Assembly: GCA_028875875.1 (NCBI GenBank)
Contig: JAGWUV010000022.1
Coordinates: forward strand, 1 to 64,000
DNA: 64,000 nt
Reading direction: 5' to 3'
DNA from: Bacteroidota bacterium
GTDB taxonomy: Bacteria > Bacteroidota > Bacteroidia > Chitinophagales > Chitinophagaceae
Positions within the stretch are counted from its first letter, which is position 1. Each line of letters begins with the position of its first letter. Below are positions 7,190-16,407 of the stretch, one piece after another. The notes beneath the pieces were generated by a model. It saw nothing but the letters and a program-made list of their open reading frames with translations, made no database searches and was not told the origin of the DNA. A program made the position numbers and the translations under genes.

Positions 7190-7499
7190 GATAAGTTATA
7201 AGTTATAAGTAATACGTTGTACGTTAGAAAACGATTGATCACAGGAATTTAACCACTCATTTTATACTTCGCCACTTACCACGTAAAACCGATGAGTTAT
7301 GAGTTATAAGTAATACGTTGTACGTTAGAAAACGATTGACCACCGGAGTATAACCACTTATTTTATACTTCGATACTTACCACGTAAAACCGATGAGTTA
7401 TGAGTTATAAGTAATACGTTGTACGTTGTACGTTAGAAAACGATTGATCACCGGAGTATAACCACTTATTTTATACTTCGCCACTTACAACGTAAAACT
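7190..7499 (+). repeat. Three-copy 101-bp tandem repeat
   Basis: Three head-to-tail units start at 7190, 7291 and 7392. Each runs GATRAGTTATRAGTTATAAG, TAATACGTTGTACGTTAG, AAAACGATTGA, TATAACCACT, TTTATACTTCG and CACGTAAAACC. The third unit carries an extra 7-bp GTACGTT duplication. The units are nearly identical, so the array is young or kept uniform. A partial inverted echo (ACGTACAAC, about 7504-7512) follows. It fills the DUF2007-cdsA gap. There are no unique spacers, so it is not CRISPR. Confidence 0.9.
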
Positions 7500-8474: not shown

Positions 8475-8488
8475 CTAACGTTAGTTAG
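8475..8488. promoter_or_regulatory. CTAAC-N4-GTTAG operator before the TetR gene
   Basis: CTAAC (8475-8479), GTTA, GTTAG (8484-8488): a 14-bp palindrome with perfect 5-bp arms. It lies just upstream of the TATTTTTG -7 element at 8491-8498, so a protein bound there would block the promoter. The same arms and spacing occur at 10921-10934 before paaA. TetR-family regulators typically bind such short palindromes. Autoregulation is inferred. Confidence 0.65.
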
Positions 8489-8490
8489 TG

Positions 8491-8498
8491 TATTTTTG
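8491..8498 (+). promoter_or_regulatory. TAnnTTTG -7 promoter element of the TetR gene
   Basis: TATTTTTG matches the Bacteroidota -7 consensus TAnnTTTG exactly and lies four bases before the ATG at 8503. The message would therefore be nearly leaderless. Confidence 0.6.
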
Positions 8499-8502
8499 AA
8501 TT

Positions 8503-9093
8503 ATGGGAAGAATAAAAACCGACAGTAACCTCACCCGCAAAGATGTGATCATCAGCAAAGCGGCTACCCTATTCAGAGAAAAGGGATACAAAGCAGCCAG
8601 TATGCGTGAACTGGCCGATATTGTTGGCGTAGAAGCAGCCAGCCTCTACAACCACATTAAAAGCAAAAGCGAACTACTGCATGAAATATGTTTTAATGTA
8701 GCCAACCGCTTCTCTCATATCATGGATGAAGTGGAAGCGGAAAAAATTTCCTCCCTGGAAAAAATTGAGAAACTGCTTCGTTTTCATATCAACGGGATGG
8801 TGCATCACTTTGAAGAAGTATATGTATCGGACCGTGAGTGGAAATACTTATCCGACCCCTATCTATCCAATTTTCAAAACCAGCGCCGTACCTACCGCAA
8901 ACGTTTTGCAGCCATTATTGAAGATGGTATCCGCAAAAAGGAGATTAAGAAAATTGATCCAACAACAGCCGTGTTAATTATGCTGCATGCGATCAGCGGC
9001 ATTGAAAGCTGGCACCGCAGTAAACAAAAGATTAATGGCGATGAGCTGGAAGAAAATATGATCACCATCCTGGTGGGTGGTTTGAAGAAATAA
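8503..9093 (+). CDS. TetR/AcrR-family regulator of phenylacetate genes
   Basis: A 196-residue one-component repressor. The N-terminal helix-turn-helix (about residues 12-60) reads RKDVIISKAATLFREKGY, then SMRELADIVGVEAASLYNHIKSK, a standard TetR DNA-binding unit. The helical C-terminal part would bind ligand and dimerise. It lies 30 bp upstream of paaE and shares its operator sequence with the paaA promoter. By analogy with TetR-type PaaR regulators the ligand may be phenylacetyl-CoA or a related CoA ester, but this is inference. The family call itself is firm. Confidence 0.9.
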   Translation: MGRIKTDSNLTRKDVIISKAATLFREKGYKAASMRELADIVGVEAASLYNHIKSKSELLHEICFNVANRFSHIMDEVEAEKISSLEKIEKLLRFHINGMVHHFEEVYVSDREWKYLSDPYLSNFQNQRRTYRKRFAAIIEDGIRKKEIKKIDPTTAVLIMLHAISGIESWHRSKQKINGDELEENMITILVGGLKK

Positions 9094-9123
9094 TACCGGA
9101 AAGGATCTAACGATAGCCTGTTT

Positions 9124-10200
9124 ATGTCATTACACTTTACAAAAGTTACGGTGGCGGAAGTAAGAAAGGAAACACATGATTGTGTTTCTGTTCTGCTCAA
9201 TATACCTGCTACTTTACAGAAGGATTTCCAGTTTCAGCAAGGGCAATATCTTACTGTTCGGGCAATCATCAACGGACAGGAAATAAGGCGTTCCTATTCA
9301 CTCTGCTCTTCACCTTTGGATAACGAATGGCGGATTGCCATTAAAGCTGTAAAAGGGGGTATCTTTTCTACCTATGCCAACACCCAACTGAAAGCAGGTG
9401 ATAGTCTTGAGATCATGCAGCCATTGGGCAGGTTCTTCACACCGATAGACGCAGCAGCCAAAAAAAATTATGTGTGTTTTGCTGCAGGCAGCGGCATCAC
9501 TCCTGTTCTTTCCATTCTCACCACCGTGCTTCGTGCAGAACCGGAGAGTACCTGCACACTGATCTATGGTAACAGGAACAGCCAGTCCATCATTTTTAAA
9601 GAACAGTTGGAAGCATTGAAAAACCGCTACCTGCAACGGTTTCAACTGATCCATATTTTAAGTAGGGAAAGAACGGAAACACCGTTGCAGCATGGAAGGA
9701 TCGATACAGAAAAACTGGCTGCATTGGGGAAGTTGGTTGACTGGCACAGTGCAGATACATTTTTCATCTGCGGGCCACAGGCAATGACACAAAACATCCG
9801 CTCATTTTTAGTAGAACAACATATAGATACTGCAGCCATTCATACAGAACTGTTTACTTCTTCTTCAGGTGAAAAGGCAAACGTTAAAAGTCAGAATACA
9901 GCAGCTACAGATAAAACACCACAATGCCAACTCACTATTAAAACCGATGGTAGGAGTTTTGAGCTGTCCTTACCCATGAACAGCAGTATTTTAGAAGCCG
10001 CTCTGCAGGAAGGGCTTGATCTGCCCTATGCCTGTAAAGGTGGTGTATGCTGTACCTGCAAAGCCAAACTGCTGGAAGGTAAGGTACAGATGGATGTACA
10101 TTACGGGCTGGAAGAAGATGAGATTGCACAGGGCTTTATCCTCACCTGTCAATCACATCCGCTTACAGAGAAAGTAGTGGTGGATTATGATGTGAAATAA
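9124..10200 (+). CDS. paaE: Phenylacetyl-CoA epoxidase reductase subunit PaaE
   Basis: A 358-residue reductase that feeds electrons from NADPH to the PaaA di-iron site. The N-terminal FAD domain carries RRSYS (about 55-59). An NAD(P) domain follows with FAAGSGITPVLSI and FICGPQAM. The C-terminal plant-type ferredoxin has the 2Fe-2S ligands C304, C309, C312 and C342 (C-x4-C-x2-C...C). Length and domain order match PaaE. It is probably co-transcribed with the TetR gene but is separated from paaABCD by a gene on the other strand, unlike the usual paaABCDE order. A degenerate half-site CTAAC (about 9107) lies just before it. Confidence 0.93.
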   Translation: MSLHFTKVTVAEVRKETHDCVSVLLNIPATLQKDFQFQQGQYLTVRAIINGQEIRRSYSLCSSPLDNEWRIAIKAVKGGIFSTYANTQLKAGDSLEIMQPLGRFFTPIDAAAKKNYVCFAAGSGITPVLSILTTVLRAEPESTCTLIYGNRNSQSIIFKEQLEALKNRYLQRFQLIHILSRERTETPLQHGRIDTEKLAALGKLVDWHSADTFFICGPQAMTQNIRSFLVEQHIDTAAIHTELFTSSSGEKANVKSQNTAATDKTPQCQLTIKTDGRSFELSLPMNSSILEAALQEGLDLPYACKGGVCCTCKAKLLEGKVQMDVHYGLEEDEIAQGFILTCQSHPLTEKVVVDYDVK

Positions 10201-10201
10201 A

Positions 10202-10855
10202 TTATTTCAGCAAATAAGGTTGAATGATCTTTTGCCAGATAGCATAGCCTTTATCATTCATGTGCAGCCTGTCTTCAGTGAACAAATCCTCTCTTACTTT
10301 TCCATTGGCATCCAGCATGGGATGATATACATCGATGAAGCGTGCATGTTGCTGTTTTTTCAAATAGGCTTTTACTAAATCATTCGCCTGTACCATGGCC
10401 GGTGCCAAATTCCAACGGCTGGGGCTTGGCTTGATCGATAAGAAATCAATCTCCGCATAGGGCAATGCTTTTCTGATCATACCGAACAAAGTTGTAAAAC
10501 GTTGCAGTACAATGGCAGCCGTAACCGTATCGGAAGAAGCCAAATCATTATCTCCACAATAAACGATCACCTGCCTGGGCTGGTAAGCGATCACAATATC
10601 CTTCACATACCTGATCACATCAGGTAATGTAGAGCCTCCGAAACCGCGATTGATCACAGGGTAATTGGGAAATGCTTCTTTCATTTTCACCCATTTCCTG
10701 AACGATGAGCTGCCTACAAATACGATGGAATGTTTGGCAGGATAATGCATACTATCCTGTTTTTTAAAAGCATTAATCTCATCTGCAAAAGGCTGTGCCT
10801 GCACTTGTGTATACAATGCCACCAGTAATAATACCAGGCTGTGACGAAAGATCAT
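10202..10855 (-). CDS. SGNH/GDSL-family hydrolase, exported
   Basis: A 217-residue protein with a signal peptide (about 1-20, ending VQAQ). It carries the SGNH blocks: GSSSF (block I, nucleophile Ser), NRGFGGST (block II Gly), GDNDL (block III Asn) and DRLHMND (block V Asp and His). It is therefore an esterase or lipase-like hydrolase acting outside the cytoplasm. Its stop lies one base from that of paaE (convergent), and it diverges from paaA. It splits the paa genes into two units. The substrate is unknown and no link to phenylacetate is evident. Confidence 0.88.
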   Translation of the reverse strand: MIFRHSLVLLLVALYTQVQAQPFADEINAFKKQDSMHYPAKHSIVFVGSSSFRKWVKMKEAFPNYPVINRGFGGSTLPDVIRYVKDIVIAYQPRQVIVYCGDNDLASSDTVTAAIVLQRFTTLFGMIRKALPYAEIDFLSIKPSPSRWNLAPAMVQANDLVKAYLKKQQHARFIDVYHPMLDANGKVREDLFTEDRLHMNDKGYAIWQKIIQPYLLK

Positions 10856-10920
10856 GTTAATATCGCTTATTTTTCTTCCACAAAATACAAAGCCTCAAAG
10901 ATTCTTTACACAGTTTTAAA

Positions 10921-10934
10921 CTAACAATCGTTAG
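10921..10934. promoter_or_regulatory. CTAAC-N4-GTTAG operator before paaA
   Basis: CTAAC (10921-10925), AATC, GTTAG (10930-10934), with the same arms and spacing as the site before the TetR gene. AAACTTTG at 10944-10951, one base off TAnnTTTG, lies just downstream and could be the -7 element. The paaA ATG is at 10984. A repressor bound here would control paaA-B-C-D-G-I. The divergent SGNH gene starts 66 bp away and could also be affected. Confidence 0.65.
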
Positions 10935-10983
10935 CGATGCATAAAACTTTGCTATTTTTATGTTCCAACGAAATTGAATTGCC

Positions 10984-11922
10984 ATGACCATTGAAGAACA
11001 ATTTCAACACAAGATCGAAGAAGAGATCAAGATTGAGCCGAAAGACTGGATGCCAGATAAATACAGGCAAACGCTGATACGCCAGATATCGCAGCATGCA
11101 CACAGTGAAATTGTGGGCATGTTACCTGAAGGGAACTGGATCACAAGGGCCCCTTCTTTAAAAAGGAAAGCGATCCTGCTGGCCAAAGTGCAGGATGAAG
11201 CAGGGCATGGATTGTATTTATACAGCGCCGCTGAAACACTGGGTATTTCCAGGGATGAAATGTACCATCAATTACATACAGGCAAGGCTAAGTATTCGTC
11301 CATTTTTAATTATCCAACGCTTAGCTGGGCTGATATAGGTGCTATCGGGTGGTTGGTAGATGGCGCTGCCATTATGAACCAGGTGCCGCTGTGCAGAACA
11401 AGCTACGGACCATACGCAAGGGCCATGGTGCGTATTTGCAAAGAAGAAAGTTTTCACCAGCGGCAAGGGTTTGAAATTTTATTGGTGCTATCGAAAGGAA
11501 CGGAAGCTCAAAAAAAGATATGCCAGGATGCGATCAATCGTTGGTGGTGGCCTTGTTTAATGATGTTTGGTCCGGCAGATGAACAATCGCCACATACCGC
11601 ACAAAGCATGCAATGGAAGATCAAACGGTTTAGTAATGATGAGTTAAGACAAAAGTTTGTGAACATGATTGCCGAGCAGGTGAAAGTATTAAACATGACC
11701 TTACCCGACCCGGATTTACGATGGAATGAAGAACGTAAACAATACGATTTTGGAAAGATTAACTGGGAAGAGTTCTGGAATGTATTAAGTGGTAACGGAC
11801 CTTGTAATAAACAAAGGTTGGATGCCCGGAAAAAAGCATGGGAAGAAGGTGCATGGGTACGTGAAGCGGCGGCGGCCTATGCAGAGAAGAAAGCAATGAA
11901 AGCGCATACACAGGTAGCTTAA
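10984..11922 (+). CDS. paaA: Phenylacetyl-CoA epoxidase catalytic subunit PaaA
   Basis: A 312-residue ferritin-like di-iron oxygenase subunit that epoxidises the ring of phenylacetyl-CoA at the 1,2 position. Ligand motifs are intact: E42 in the first helix, DEAGH (E72, H75) and KEESFH (E155, H158). [14 protein letters not shown] and the C-terminal [17 protein letters not shown] are family blocks. It is the first gene of the main paa unit and is preceded by the palindromic operator. The length is normal. Confidence 0.97.
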
Positions 11923-11949
11923 TTACCAATCAAACAAAAGTGATTGTAT

Positions 11950-12330
11950 ATGATAGGCGAATATGGTACTAAATACTATTACGGAGATTATGGAGAAGGA
12001 AAGGGCGGTACACCTGCTACATCTTCCCAACAGCAAACACAGGAAGAAATGAATAGCTGGCCTTTATGGGAAGTGTTCATCAGAAGCAAGCAGGGATTGG
12101 ATCATAAGCATGTGGGCAGCCTGCATGCTGCAGATGCACAAATGGCTATGGAGAATGCAAGAGATGTGTACACAAGAAGAAATGAAGGAATCAGCATATG
12201 GGTAGTGGAAAGCAAATACATACATGCTTCCAATCCCGATGATGCGGGTAGTTTATACGATCCGGCTAATGATAAAGCGTACCGCCATCCTACATTTTAC
12301 AACCTGCCTGATGAGGTAAAACATATGTAG
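11950..12330 (+). CDS. paaB: Phenylacetyl-CoA epoxidase subunit PaaB
   Basis: A 126-residue small structural subunit of the PaaABCE complex. The core WPLWEVFIRSKQGLDHKHVG, then SLHAADAQMA and ARDVYTRRNEG, is diagnostic. Upstream is an unusual Gly/Tyr- and Gln-rich extension of about 33 residues. The ATG at 11950 is used because the extension reads like coding sequence. A second ATG at 12049, preceded by CAGGAAGAA, would give the usual PaaB start just before WPLWEV and is a serious alternative. A TTG at 11944 is also in frame. Confidence 0.92.
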   Translation: MIGEYGTKYYYGDYGEGKGGTPATSSQQQTQEEMNSWPLWEVFIRSKQGLDHKHVGSLHAADAQMAMENARDVYTRRNEGISIWVVESKYIHASNPDDAGSLYDPANDKAYRHPTFYNLPDEVKHM

Positions 12331-12362
12331 CGCTCAAATTCAAAAGTCAAAATGTAAAAGCC

Positions 12363-12380
12363 AAAAAGTCTTCACTTTTT
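12363..12380 (+). other. Weak hairpin between paaB and paaC
   Basis: AAAAAGT (12363-12369), loop CTTC, ACTTTTT (12374-12380). The stem has few G:C pairs but ends in five T, so it could attenuate or process the paa message between paaB and paaC. The 79-bp gap is the widest inside the unit. The effect is uncertain. Confidence 0.3.
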
Positions 12381-12409
12381 GATGCAGATTGCTCACTTAA
12401 GCCTTTTAT

Positions 12410-13162
12410 ATGAATCAACTTATCCAATATACGCTTCACCTCGCAGACAATGCATTGATCATGGGGCACCGTAACAGTGAATGGTGTGGCCATGGTCCGG
12501 CACTGGAACAAGACATAGCCTTATCCAACATTTCACTAGACTTACTCGGACAAGCAAGAAATTTTTATCAATACGCAGCTTCATTGATCAATCAATCCTC
12601 TCCTTCACAGGAAGCAACAGAAGATACGCTGGCATATCTACGCGATGCACATGAATTTTATAATTGTCTGCTAACAGAATTACCTAATGGCGACTGGGCG
12701 CAAACGATCTTAAAACAGTTTTTCTTTTCCACCTACCAATACCATCTCTACCAACAATTGCAACAGCATAGTGATGAACAGTTAAAAGCCATTGCTGCCA
12801 AAGCATTGAAAGAAGTAACCTACCATGTAAGATGGAGCAGTGAATGGGTGATTCGTTTGGGAGATGGAACGGAAGAAAGCAAAAGAAGGATGCTGCAGGC
12901 GATAGATCAGGTATGGATGTTTACAGGCGAATTAACGGATGCAAGTGATTATGAGAAAAAGATGCGAATTGATTTTGATTTATTACAGCAACAATGGAAC
13001 ACAACCGTTACGAAAATATTTGAAGAAGCTAGCTTGCCCCTTCCTGTGAAGAGTAACTGGCACCAGGCAGGCGGTAAGAAAGGCATACATACAGAACATC
13101 TTGGTTTTATATTGGCCGAGATGCAATTTTTACAAAGAGCATATCCCAACAGCCAATGGTAA
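12410..13162 (+). CDS. paaC: Phenylacetyl-CoA epoxidase subunit PaaC
   Basis: A 250-residue ferritin-like subunit that pairs with PaaA but lacks a working di-iron site. Family blocks: LADNALIMGHRNSEWCGHGP, ALEQDIALSNISLDLLGQAR and EVTYHVRWSSEWVIRLGDGT, ending with HTEHLGFILAEMQFLQRAYP. Its stop overlaps the paaD start by seven bases, so the two are translationally coupled. Confidence 0.96.
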   Translation: MNQLIQYTLHLADNALIMGHRNSEWCGHGPALEQDIALSNISLDLLGQARNFYQYAASLINQSSPSQEATEDTLAYLRDAHEFYNCLLTELPNGDWAQTILKQFFFSTYQYHLYQQLQQHSDEQLKAIAAKALKEVTYHVRWSSEWVIRLGDGTEESKRRMLQAIDQVWMFTGELTDASDYEKKMRIDFDLLQQQWNTTVTKIFEEASLPLPVKSNWHQAGGKKGIHTEHLGFILAEMQFLQRAYPNSQW

Positions 13163-13674
13163 CACAAGCAGTAGCTAATATAAAAGATAAGATCATCGCC
13201 ATCCTTAGCACGGTAACTGATCCTGAAATACCTGTTTTATCGGTTATGGACCTGGGTGTGATCAGGGATGTACAGGTTGGTATAAACAATGATGCAGTGA
13301 GTATTCACATCACCATTACCCCCACTTATACGGGATGCCCGGCTTTGGATGTAATGAAGATGAGCATCCGAATGGCTTTATTGCAGGAGGGTTATAACAA
13401 TATAGTACTCACAGAAACATTATCCCCGGCATGGACAACAGACTGGATCAGCGAGGCGGGCAAAGAAAAACTCAAGGCTTATGGCATCGCCCCGCCTAAC
13501 ATTAAACAACTGGTATGTACACCGGATGCTTTCCAGGCAGAAGAAGCCGTACAATGCCCGCACTGTAACTCCTACCACACCAGGTTAATTTCTCAATTTG
13601 GCAGTACAGCATGTAAAGCCCTGTACCAATGTGAAGATTGTAAAGAACCTTTTGATTATTTTAAATGCCACTAA
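13156..13674 (+). CDS. paaD: Phenylacetate pathway Fe-S maturation protein PaaD
   Basis: A 172-residue protein. The N-terminal half is a MIP18/DUF59 domain (TDPEIPVLSVMDLGVIRDV) with the family's reactive Cys in the TPTYTGCPALD segment. The C-terminal half is a zinc-ribbon-like tail with CPHC and CEDC pairs. PaaD is thought to help assemble the cluster of the epoxidase reductase. It starts inside the end of paaC. Confidence 0.94.
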   Translation: MVTQAVANIKDKIIAILSTVTDPEIPVLSVMDLGVIRDVQVGINNDAVSIHITITPTYTGCPALDVMKMSIRMALLQEGYNNIVLTETLSPAWTTDWISEAGKEKLKAYGIAPPNIKQLVCTPDAFQAEEAVQCPHCNSYHTRLISQFGSTACKALYQCEDCKEPFDYFKCH

Positions 13675-13681
13675 TACAACC

Positions 13682-14464
13682 ATGCATACACATAGCATTT
13701 TATTGGAGGTGAATGATAACATTGCATTCATCACACTCAACAGGCCGGAAAAACTCAATGCTTTTAACAGGGAGATGGCATTACTGTTGCAAAACAAGTT
13801 GGATGAATGTGCTTCGTCTCATGCCATACGTTGTGTATTGATCAAAGGAGCCGGAAAAGCCTTCTGCGCCGGGCAAGACCTTGCAGAGGTAACAGATCCC
13901 AACGGGCCGGGCATGGAGAAAATATTGAGTGAACATTATAATCCGATCATTACCCGTATCAGGAATATGCCCAAACCAGTAATAGCGGCTGTTAATGGTG
14001 TTGCCGCCGGAGCAGGGGCTAATATTGCATTGGCCTGCGATATTGTTGTAGCCATAGAAACAGCTTCTTTTATACAGGCATTTTCCAAGATCGGGTTGAT
14101 ACCTGATAGTGGTGGCACTTTCTTTCTTCCCCGCCTGATCGGGTTTCAAAGAGCCAGTGCACTGATGATGCTGGGAGAAAGCATCACTGCAAAAGAAGCA
14201 GCACAAATGGGTATGCTATACAAAGTATTTTCAACAGATCTCTTTGAAGAGGAAAGTGAGAACATTGCTAAAACAGTAGCACAAATGCCTACAACGGCTT
14301 TGGCATATATTAAGCATGCCTTGAATTACAGTGCATCCAACAATTTGGAACAACAATTACAACTGGAGGATGAATACCAGCAAAAAGCAGCGCTGACACA
14401 TGACTTCAAAGAAGGCGTAGAAGCCTTTATACAAAAAAGAAAGCCCTTATTCACCGGTAAATAA
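13682..14464 (+). CDS. paaG: 1,2-Epoxyphenylacetyl-CoA isomerase PaaG
   Basis: A 260-residue crotonase-fold enzyme that opens the epoxide to the oxepin-CoA form. The oxyanion-hole segments are KAFCAGQDLAEVTDPNGPG and NGVAAGAGANIALACD. The catalytic Asp is D142 in IPDSGGTFFLPRLIG, as in PaaG rather than the Glu of classical hydratases. The frame is open further upstream (to 13598, inside paaD), but the ATG at 13682, seven bases after the paaD stop, gives a normal N-terminus. Confidence 0.92.
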   Translation: MHTHSILLEVNDNIAFITLNRPEKLNAFNREMALLLQNKLDECASSHAIRCVLIKGAGKAFCAGQDLAEVTDPNGPGMEKILSEHYNPIITRIRNMPKPVIAAVNGVAAGAGANIALACDIVVAIETASFIQAFSKIGLIPDSGGTFFLPRLIGFQRASALMMLGESITAKEAAQMGMLYKVFSTDLFEEESENIAKTVAQMPTTALAYIKHALNYSASNNLEQQLQLEDEYQQKAALTHDFKEGVEAFIQKRKPLFTGK

Positions 14465-14469
14465 AATAC

Positions 14470-14883
14470 ATGAACCCATACAGGCAGGTAGTAGAAAAGA
14501 TGATGCAAGATGACCGCTTCTCACAATGGTTGGGCATCAGCATTGTGGACATTCAAGAAGGTTACGCTAAAATAAACATGACAGTAAGAACGGAGATGCT
14601 CAACGGCCTGGGTATTGTACACGGTGGCATTGCTTTTTCACTGGCAGACAGCGCTTTCGCATTTGCCTGTAATAACCGCAATAATTTATCTGTTGCGTTA
14701 GATACGAATATCAACTTCATAAAGGCGGTACACGTTGGTGATACATTGATCGCAGAAGCGAAAGAAATACACAATGGGAAACAAACCGGCGTTTATTTAA
14801 TTACTATTTTTAATGAACGTGAAGAACAGGTTGCCTTATTCAAGGGTACTTGCTTCAGAACCGGTAAAAAATTAGTTTCATAG
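14470..14883 (+). CDS. paaI: Hydroxyphenylacetyl-CoA thioesterase PaaI
   Basis: A 137-residue hotdog-fold thioesterase that rescues CoA from dead-end hydroxylated phenylacetyl-CoA. The active-site block NGLGIVHGGIAFSLADSAFA contains N45, H51 and D60. It starts five bases after the paaG stop and is the last clear paa gene of the unit. paaF, paaH, paaJ, paaZ and paaK are not in this window. Confidence 0.93.
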   Translation: MNPYRQVVEKMMQDDRFSQWLGISIVDIQEGYAKINMTVRTEMLNGLGIVHGGIAFSLADSAFAFACNNRNNLSVALDTNINFIKAVHVGDTLIAEAKEIHNGKQTGVYLITIFNEREEQVALFKGTCFRTGKKLVS

Positions 14884-15016
14884 CAATACAATTCTATATG
14901 ACTAATTATAGTAGCAGCTTATAATAGTCGCCTGTTTTGTTTGCAAAGAAAATTAGGATAAAGTAAGTTTATTATGATTGAGAGATCATTTTTCCAATCT
15001 TACTAAAGCTTTGTAT

Positions 15017-15754
15017 ATGAGAAAAATTTCTTTATGGGCCCATCACCATCTGTGGGCGGCCCGCCTTGCCATCACATTCATCAAATTATCATTAGCATTA
15101 CTTGGAATTTTTGTCGGCTTTACTTTAAGTGGTATTCATTATTATCTTTCACCAGCAGTTTTTTATAGTTCCGCCCTTGCATTACTAATAATCACTTTCT
15201 TATACCCAAACAAAAAAACCAGCACTACCTATTTTTCGAAGAAACAGTTTTATCTCCGTCAGAAAATTTCAGATATAGTTGCAGGCACCTGTTCATTCAT
15301 ACTGGTGATGGCAGTTGTTAATCATGAATATCTCGTAATTACCGGTGAACCGGCCTATGCATCACTACCTTCCAAACGTATTCACCAAAAGCCTACAGCC
15401 GAAGAAATACTTTCCTCACTGCAATACCGCGACAGAAGCGATTTGAAAAGATTTGAGAAAAGAATATTAAAAAGAGAATTTGAAAAACAACTTGGTATTT
15501 ATCTTACTAGTAAACTGAAAAACGATAATAATAAAGCTGAAAAAGCTACATTGATAATTCTTGCGATCATAGCAGCCGTTGGACTCACATTTTTGCTGGC
15601 AGCACTGGCATGCGATATCTCCTGCTCCGGCAATGATGGGCTTGCCATATTAGTGGGCATAGTGGGTTTTGCCGCTATCGTTTGGTTATTAATAATTGCG
15701 ATAAGATCAATTAACAAAAGCCACAAAGAAAAAGTTAAGGAAGCAGGCCCGTAA
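15017..15754 (+). CDS. Membrane protein with Cys-rich helical hairpin end, unknown
   Basis: A 245-residue protein. Hydrophobic segments lie at about 15-37, 42-58 and 83-104. A polar, basic middle part (about 105-170) includes TAEEILSSLQYRDRSDLKRF. Two further C-terminal helices read LIILAIIAAVGLTFLLAA and GLAILVGIVGFAAIVWLLII around LACDISCSG. I recall similar helical-hairpin tails in other Bacteroidota proteins, but no function is known to me. The frame extends to a TTG at 14978; the ATG at 15017 is preferred. It sits between paaI and the paaY-like gene; membership of the pathway is unproven. Confidence 0.65.
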   Translation: MRKISLWAHHHLWAARLAITFIKLSLALLGIFVGFTLSGIHYYLSPAVFYSSALALLIITFLYPNKKTSTTYFSKKQFYLRQKISDIVAGTCSFILVMAVVNHEYLVITGEPAYASLPSKRIHQKPTAEEILSSLQYRDRSDLKRFEKRILKREFEKQLGIYLTSKLKNDNNKAEKATLIILAIIAAVGLTFLLAALACDISCSGNDGLAILVGIVGFAAIVWLLIIAIRSINKSHKEKVKEAGP

Positions 15755-15813
15755 AATTTTCAGCATCTCATATCCAAAGCAGCAATACAGCTTAACTTTA
15801 AGAAAAGAATGCC

Positions 15814-16407
15814 ATGATCTATCGCTTCAAAGAATATATACCTGTAGTGCATGAAACTGCTTTTGTACATCCGCAGGCTGCTGTTACCGGTAATGTTGTT
15901 ATTGGTAAACACGTATATATTGGTCCTGGTGCTGCCCTACGGGGTGATTGGGGAAAGATCATAATAGAAGATGGCTGTAATGTGCAGGAGAACTGCACCA
16001 TACACATGTTTCCAGGCGTAACGGTTTTATTGAAAGAAGCTGCTCATATTGGTCATGGCGCCGTGATACACGGCGCTACGATAGGCCGGAATTGCCTGAT
16101 AGGTATGAATAGTGTGGTGATGGATGATGTTGTTTTAGAAGATGAATGTATTGTGGGTGCACTAAGCTTTATAAAAGCCAAAGAGTATTTTGAAAGAAGA
16201 AGTGTAATAGCCGGTAACCCCGCCAAAAAAATTAAGGACGTAAGTGATGAGATGATCGCCTGGAAAACAGAAGGAACCAAATTGTATCAACAGCTTCCGC
16301 ACGAAATGATGCAGTACTGGCAAGTTTCAGAACCGCTGAGAGAAGCTCCAGGTAAGGAAACTCAACAAGAAGCCATATATAAAACATGGCAAGAACGAAA
16401 GCAATAA
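15814..16407 (+). CDS. paaY: PaaY-like gamma-carbonic-anhydrase-fold protein
   Basis: A 197-residue left-handed beta-helix protein built of hexapeptide repeats (VTGNVVIGKHVYIGPGA and similar), closed by a C-terminal helix. The putative metal-binding histidines H64, H81 and H86 (IHMF and GHGAVIHG) are present. PaaY is a thioesterase associated with phenylacetate degradation. The C-terminal words AWKTEGTKLYQQL and EPLRE fit PaaY/CaiE better than plain gamma-carbonic anhydrases. Its place after the paa unit supports the call. Confidence 0.78.
   Translation: MIYRFKEYIPVVHETAFVHPQAAVTGNVVIGKHVYIGPGAALRGDWGKIIIEDGCNVQENCTIHMFPGVTVLLKEAAHIGHGAVIHGATIGRNCLIGMNSVVMDDVVLEDECIVGALSFIKAKEYFERRSVIAGNPAKKIKDVSDEMIAWKTEGTKLYQQLPHEMMQYWQVSEPLREAPGKETQQEAIYKTWQERKQ

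Follow-up and report, generated by a model that had tools for sequence, protein, structure and literature searches.

A palindromic operator predicted for a TetR-type regulator among phenylacetate genes recurs before amino-acid catabolism genes in Chitinophagaceae

The stretch analysed here, 64,000 nucleotides of a Chitinophagaceae genome (contig JAGWUV010000022.1, positions 1 to 64,000; the window), contains a gene for a TetR-type regulator (8503-9093; tetR) placed among genes of phenylacetate (paa) degradation, and two copies of the palindrome CTAAC-N4-GTTAG, one before tetR and one before paaA. Judged by sequence comparison within the window, the source genome and its relatives, the palindrome is very probably the operator of the neighbouring TetR-type repressor. 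It is also likely that this protein is an acyl-coenzyme A (acyl-CoA)-responsive repressor of a wide set of amino-acid catabolism genes, one that would have grown from a local paa repressor and that is often autoregulated.

The sites in the window and in the source genome

The two palindromes that the first-pass annotation had placed before tetR and paaA are both exact and are the sole exact copies in the window. The predicted operator 1, CTAACGTTAGTTAG (8475-8488, forward strand), ends 15 bases before the ATG of tetR, upstream of the pair tetR-paaE, and would be the site of autoregulation; the predicted operator 2, CTAACAATCGTTAG (10921-10934, forward strand), lies upstream of paaA. Shuffled versions of the window contained a mean of 0.02 exact copies and none of 100 shuffles gave two; allowing up to two mismatches, the palindrome is not in excess in the window (15 observed, 22 expected).

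Both sites are followed by a match to TAnnTTTG, the -7 promoter element of the Bacteroidetes, which is exact at tetR (TATTTTTG, 8491-8498, forward strand; 2 bases past the site) and a 7/8 match at paaA (TATTTTTA, 10953-10960, forward strand; 18 bases past it), so that the earlier description of both as -7-like is fair, and its wording that each palindrome stands just upstream suits tetR better than paaA. TAnnTTTG at an offset of 18-20 bases was seen in 4 of the 9 relatives' promoters with an exact paaA site that were examined. Among 88 site-gene pairs from TetR-bearing family genomes, the element occurs no more than 34 bases downstream of the site in 30 and on the upstream side in 6, against a mean of 2.2 and a maximum of 6 in 200 rounds of shuffling, and this geometry fits repression through promoter occlusion.

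The source genome, a 3.53-Mb draft that is 97.5 percent complete, holds 8 exact copies, none of which falls inside a called gene; each is near a start. They precede tetR, paaA, paaZ (TIGR02278, 850 bits), two acyl-CoA dehydrogenases with many short-chain enzymes among their solved relatives, a thiolase of the acetyl-CoA acetyltransferase type, a cystathionine beta-synthase (484 bits, under the cut-off of 510) and an L-threonine dehydrogenase, whose gene is divergent from kdsA and matches solved L-threonine 3-dehydrogenases. It had been proposed that a scan with the motif would lead to the remaining paa genes; this was borne out by the exact site before paaZ. A paaH-like 3-hydroxybutyryl-CoA dehydrogenase has a one-mismatch site only, no PaaK was found in the source genome, and no separate assignment was made for paaF and paaJ. 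The pattern with at most one mismatch, exact copies included, occurs at 62 places, 50 of which were listed (8 exact, 42 with one mismatch); among the 21 one-mismatch places inspected, 8 fall within long reading frames and 13 outside. Right-centred one-mismatch sites precede, besides the paaH-like gene, a fused IcmF mutase (1788 bits), a branched-chain aminotransferase and a proline dehydrogenase, and further one-mismatch sites, which like that of the paaH-like gene are weak candidates, stand at aspartokinase, Fba and an outer-membrane-type protein.

Distribution of the sites among relatives

The family sample comprised 36 genomes, the source included, 22 with the TetR protein and 14 without it. 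Exact sites numbered 94 against 122 matches of the reversed control pattern in the TetR-bearing genomes, and 13 against 72 in the TetR-free ones. For single genes, a footprint was defined as at least 9 of 10 bases matched (at most one mismatch) within 260 base pairs (bp) upstream. A footprint precedes paaA in every one of the 16 genomes that have both TetR and paaA (source included) and in 0 of 10 without TetR, these being ten of the twelve TetR-free genomes with paaA (G006, G030 and a second paaA copy in G005 were left out). For the acyl-CoA dehydrogenase, asked in 16 of the 36 genomes, the corresponding figures are 8 of 8 and 0 of 8, and for ilvE, asked in 30 of the 36, they are 10 of 17 (one more was not evaluable) and 0 of 13; one TetR-free genome, G012, is only 72 percent complete. 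By these comparisons the sites track the presence of tetR across related genomes, and the tie that had been drawn between the TetR protein, the palindrome and both paa units holds, given the sites at tetR and paaA and the division of the paaA footprint.

In a tree of ilvE, 12 TetR-free genomes form one clade, and the TetR-free G004 is nested in the TetR group (support 100/99), beside G003 (82/65); a clean split of TetR-bearing and TetR-free groups appeared in 0 percent of 200 bootstrap trees. G004, in which tetR was lost, lacks the paaA site that is present in its nearest relative, G003, and also the site at the acyl-CoA dehydrogenase that all eight of the tested TetR genomes carry.

Targets beyond phenylacetate degradation

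In the TetR genomes, 61 of 83 exact sites have as neighbour a gene of amino-acid or acyl-CoA catabolism, of central carbon metabolism or of the paa set, or tetR itself, against 0 of 12 in the TetR-free genomes, with a target list drawn up after the sites had been seen; the fairer count is obtained with a list preset from the source genome, by which 37 of 75 sites in the other TetR genomes stand beside a target, against 0 of 12. These counts cover 83 of the 94 sites in TetR genomes (11 in G003, G007, G021 and G027 were left out) and 12 of the 13 in TetR-free genomes (G011 was left out), and the genes near sites were called with a simple longest-open-reading-frame script in place of a gene finder. 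Ordered by how many genomes have an exact site, the targets are a first acyl-CoA dehydrogenase (13), paaA (10), a second acyl-CoA dehydrogenase (7), thiolase, tetR and phosphoenolpyruvate (PEP) carboxykinase (5 each), ilvE (4), and cystathionine beta-synthase, threonine dehydrogenase and IcmF (2 each), with single cases at paaZ, proline dehydrogenase, glutamate dehydrogenase, an arginase-family gene, fructose-bisphosphate aldolase and isocitrate dehydrogenase. The targets thus span phenylalanine, branched-chain, threonine and methionine/cysteine genes, proline, glutamate and arginine genes in single relatives, and PEP carboxykinase.

The centre of the sites is non-random. Among 80 intergenic sites, position 6 is a purine in 75 (55 A and 20 G, the other 5 being T) and position 9 a pyrimidine in 74, and the predicted operator is better written CTAAC-R-N2-Y-GTTAG.

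The first-pass annotation had named this a probable paa regulon, which is right as far as the sites at tetR, paaA and paaZ go and too narrow for the other five of the eight exact sites, which are at other amino-acid or acyl-CoA genes. A dedicated PaaR, answering phenylacetyl-CoA and controlling only tetR-paaE, paaABCDGI and paaZ, with the remaining sites due to chance or to another factor, would account for the position of tetR inside the paa cluster, for the constancy of the paaA site and for the five order-level genomes described below, in which tetR stands directly before paaA with one site; moreover, in the available part of their paper the authors of the Burkholderia study judged its PaaR repeat to be specific to paa clusters (PMC2770484). 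We regard it as unlikely: the sites at the acyl-CoA dehydrogenase and ilvE go with tetR as the paaA site does, and 6 of the 22 family TetR genomes have no paaA, among which G009, G013 and G024 retain sites at non-paa targets. The predicted regulon was tested for restriction to paa genes, which is what was reported for Burkholderia, and did not show it; for this reason the regulator is not filed as a plain PaaR.

Autoregulation, origin and points against the proposal

A site with at most one mismatch precedes tetR in 9 of the 22 family genomes, which makes autoregulation common, not universal, and in 5 of the 8 order-level genomes examined for it out of 15 with TetR. Among 80 named loci, the closest of the matches listed (Sediminibacterium, Hydrotalea, Parafilimonas, Limnovirga and others), the site stands 9-18 bases before tetR in 45 of 79 evaluable cases against 6 of 1,580 shuffles; being the best of a longer list, these loci are not independent samples. 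The five order-level genomes mentioned above have tetR directly before paaA and one exact site before tetR, at a TetR identity of 36-39 percent, and in four of them more paa genes follow, as called. This order suggests a local paa repressor as the starting point of the wide regulon. Among the genomes without paaA, G024 still has paaI, the GDSL gene and a relative of a 258-residue gene beside tetR, and G013 keeps a 94-residue paaE-like fragment; these remnants look as if paa had been lost and the regulator retained. We somewhat favour the view that in Chitinophagaceae the local phenylacetate repressor became a wide controller of amino-acid catabolism and of its link to gluconeogenesis (phenylalanine, branched-chain amino acids, threonine, methionine/cysteine, proline, glutamate, arginine and PEP carboxykinase), that a little-changed operator spread to scattered promoters, and that the regulator outlived paa in some lineages.

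Several observations weigh against the proposal of a wide regulon under tetR. The raw count in the source genome is not large, since the reversed pattern occurs 5 times against the 8 forward copies, and the number alone is unimpressive; it is the locations that impress. The pattern with at most one mismatch is rarer than its reversed control (62 against 138), so that single one-mismatch sites are weak candidates. A single exact site was counted in each of the TetR genomes G018, G022, G027 and G028, and 22 of the 83 exact sites are beside no recognised target, although one of these, in G035, actually precedes tetR, which the gene-calling script had missed. The paaZ footprint is found in only 4 of 16 genomes with TetR, against 0 of 7 without it (30 genomes asked, 23 with paaZ), and the lack of ilvE and paaZ sites in G004 means little because G003 has no good site there either. 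Fisher values overstate independence, as the contrast consists of one clade split and one nested loss. Two order-level TetR genomes, G041 and G052, have no good site before paaA, and the homologue on a Saprospira grandis plasmid (NC_016936.1; locus L359, 55 kb) has no CTAAC site before tetR. That the palindromes are products of chance, as the reversed control might suggest, is nevertheless hardly credible, given that the sites lie before starts, recur at orthologous genes and are associated with tetR, and is contradicted by the footprint contrast.

A further doubt comes from the 13 of 22 family genomes without a good site before their own tetR, which would be expected if another transcription factor bound the palindrome and tetR were merely one of its targets; TetR-type factors are, besides, numerous in bacteria. 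Such a factor is quite improbable, since the sites are absent where tetR is absent, as the nested loss G004 also shows for paaA and the dehydrogenase, since a site precedes tetR even in the order-level genomes with their distant proteins, and since the two window sites match the operator of the Thermus PaaR with one mismatch.

Proposed mechanism and ligand

Sequence comparison shows the motif, where it lies, which genes carry it and that it depends on tetR being present. In the mechanism proposed, for which we infer DNA binding, repression and the ligand, a dimer of the TetR protein would sit on the palindrome in or beside the -33/-7 region and block RNA polymerase. It would repress its own operon tetR-paaE, paaABCDGI and paaZ, together with scattered genes on the way from amino acids through acyl-CoAs to central carbon, namely the acyl-CoA dehydrogenases, thiolase, threonine dehydrogenase, cystathionine beta-synthase and, in relatives, PEP carboxykinase; the weaker sites at the branched-chain aminotransferase, the IcmF mutase and proline dehydrogenase may also belong to the scheme. 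Release would most likely come from an acyl-CoA derived from amino acids, whether phenylacetyl-CoA, with phenylalanine as its source, or a short branched acyl-CoA.

The ligand is likely to be an acyl-CoA. Searched for at E values up to 1e-60, the phenylacetate-CoA ligase PaaK turned up in none of the 22 TetR genomes and in 3 of the 36 family genomes, though 28 of the 36 have paaA; the pathway thus seems usually to start without PaaK in this family, other ligases not having been searched for. On the Saprospira plasmid, tetR, a 2-oxoacid dehydrogenase E1-type gene, paaEABCD, an enoyl-CoA hydratase and a 3-hydroxyacyl-CoA dehydrogenase form one run, and the E1-type gene between tetR and paaE, with the lack of PaaK in the TetR genomes, suggests that phenylacetyl-CoA is made from phenylpyruvate. 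The data also suggest that the paa pathway of the family would serve mostly phenylalanine and begin without PaaK; a recent pathway survey anchored on the PaaK ligase does not contain the string 'Chitinophag' in the portion of its text covered (PMC13186573).

Compatible with the wide repressor, and possible at somewhat less than even chances, is the case in which the main ligand is isovaleryl-, 2-methylbutyryl- or isobutyryl-CoA and paa a follower, the regulator being AibR/BkaR-like rather than PaaR-like. The AlphaFold2 model of the TetR protein (predicted local distance difference test score, pLDDT, 92.5) has its nearest folds, at Z of about 21-22, in KstR2, AibR with isovaleryl-CoA (Z 21.3) and BkaR (Z 21.1); the acyl-CoA dehydrogenases are the most recurrent targets; and the regulator outlives paa. 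But fold likeness gives no ligand, Z differences below 1 are ties, the substrates of the enzymes are not established, and tetR is followed directly by paaA in the order-level relatives that share the site.

Gene neighbourhood

The TetR protein has 196 residues and the Pfam domains TetR_N (PF00440) and TetR_C_24 (PF17932); none of the NCBIfam models reached its cut-off against it. Like the paa and paa-like genes of the cluster, tetR is on the forward strand. It is followed after 30 bp by paaE (9124-10200; TIGR02160, 447.8 bits, above cut-off), with which it probably shares one operon. A GDSL-family hydrolase (PF13472) on the reverse strand (10202-10855) is divergent from paaA, operator 2 lying in the common intergenic region. 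The run at 10984-16407 then consists of paaA (10984-11922; TIGR02156, 530 bits, above cut-off), paaB (11944-12330; TIGR02157, above cut-off), whose true start may be internal because the match begins at residue 39, paaC (12410-13162; TIGR02158, above cut-off), paaD (13156-13674; TIGR02159, above cut-off), a paaG-like enoyl-CoA isomerase (13673-14464 as scanned, 13598 being the start given by the open-reading-frame tool; TIGR02280 as best hit at 308 bits, under the cut-off of 345), the paaI thioesterase (14470-14883; TIGR02286, above cut-off), the 258-residue gene and a paaY-like hexapeptide protein (15814-16407; TIGR02287 as best hit at 214 bits, under the cut-off of 320).

The 258-residue protein (14978-15754), encoded between paaI and the paaY-like gene, has no Pfam match; relatives at 34 percent identity are found beside paaI near tetR in locus L107 (G024) and, in locus L212 (G016), at a distance of about 7 kb from tetR. 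Of the 13 family loci shown, 8 have beside tetR a gene for a protein resembling a sugar kinase (L107 3107-4027, L188 1-816 and others); four genomes carry an exact site upstream of this gene. A 101-bp unit repeated three times in tandem, with 90 percent matches, occupies 7190-7498, directly before cdsA.

Comparison with known systems

AibR and KstR2 (Mycobacterium), the nearest folds to the model, share about 21 percent identity with the TetR protein, and the AibR structures contain isovaleryl-CoA; AibR is a Myxococcus protein, and both regulators serve other pathways. The systems below are compared through the available parts of the papers cited. PaaX, a GntR-type repressor of paa genes (PMC9493321), was rejected as an identity for the regulator, which has only TetR domains and no GntR-type domain. 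BkaR of mycobacteria (Rv2506, MSMEG_4718) is, like the regulator proposed here, an autoregulated TetR repressor, acting on branched-chain keto-acid catabolism and on a distant thiolase target, fadA4 (PMC3920632). Unlike the regulon here, its regulon table, in the part available, is without paa genes (PMC3920632); set against that regulon, acyl-CoA dehydrogenases and ilvE carry sites here, the dehydrogenase substrates not being established. The BkaR operator core GTTANTN4ANTAAC, with at most one mismatch, matches neither site and has 4 matches elsewhere in the window, 3 being expected.

The PaaR of Burkholderia cenocepacia (BCAL0210) is likewise a TetR repressor, of paaA, paaH and paaZ, with its repeat between -10 and -35 (PMC2770484), but that repeat, ACCGACCGGTCGGTT (PMC9493321), is unlike the palindrome described here. 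PaaR of Thermus thermophilus HB8 (TTHA0973) is a TetR-family protein whose gene is in an operon with paaABCD-type genes and whose 14-bp pseudopalindrome, CNAACGNNCGTTNG, compares with CTAACRNNYGTTAG here (PMC6651687); this protein responds to phenylacetyl-CoA (PMC6651687, PMC9493321). At one mismatch, the Thermus consensus CNAACGNNCGTTNG finds only the two palindrome sites in the window, with the difference that position 6 is G in Thermus and mostly A here. A selection study on the Thermus PaaR gives another consensus, AACnAACGTTnGTT (PMC6651687). Allowing two mismatches, that consensus has 4 matches in the window, no more than chance would give, and both sites are among them. In the open-licence literature searched, the motif strings occurred only in the Thermus PaaR work and a review, nothing else relevant being found, and no description of a dedicated amino-acid-catabolism regulon in Bacteroidota was found. 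The Thermus PaaR has two named target operons, both paa-type (PMC6651687). The regulator described here seems to have a wider role than its described relatives. We infer a regulator that behaves as an acyl-CoA-responsive repressor of the TetR family, akin to PaaR and BkaR; its clear motif, a natural loss in G004 and carriers without paa make it directly testable, as a putative case of regulon expansion with a nearly constant operator.

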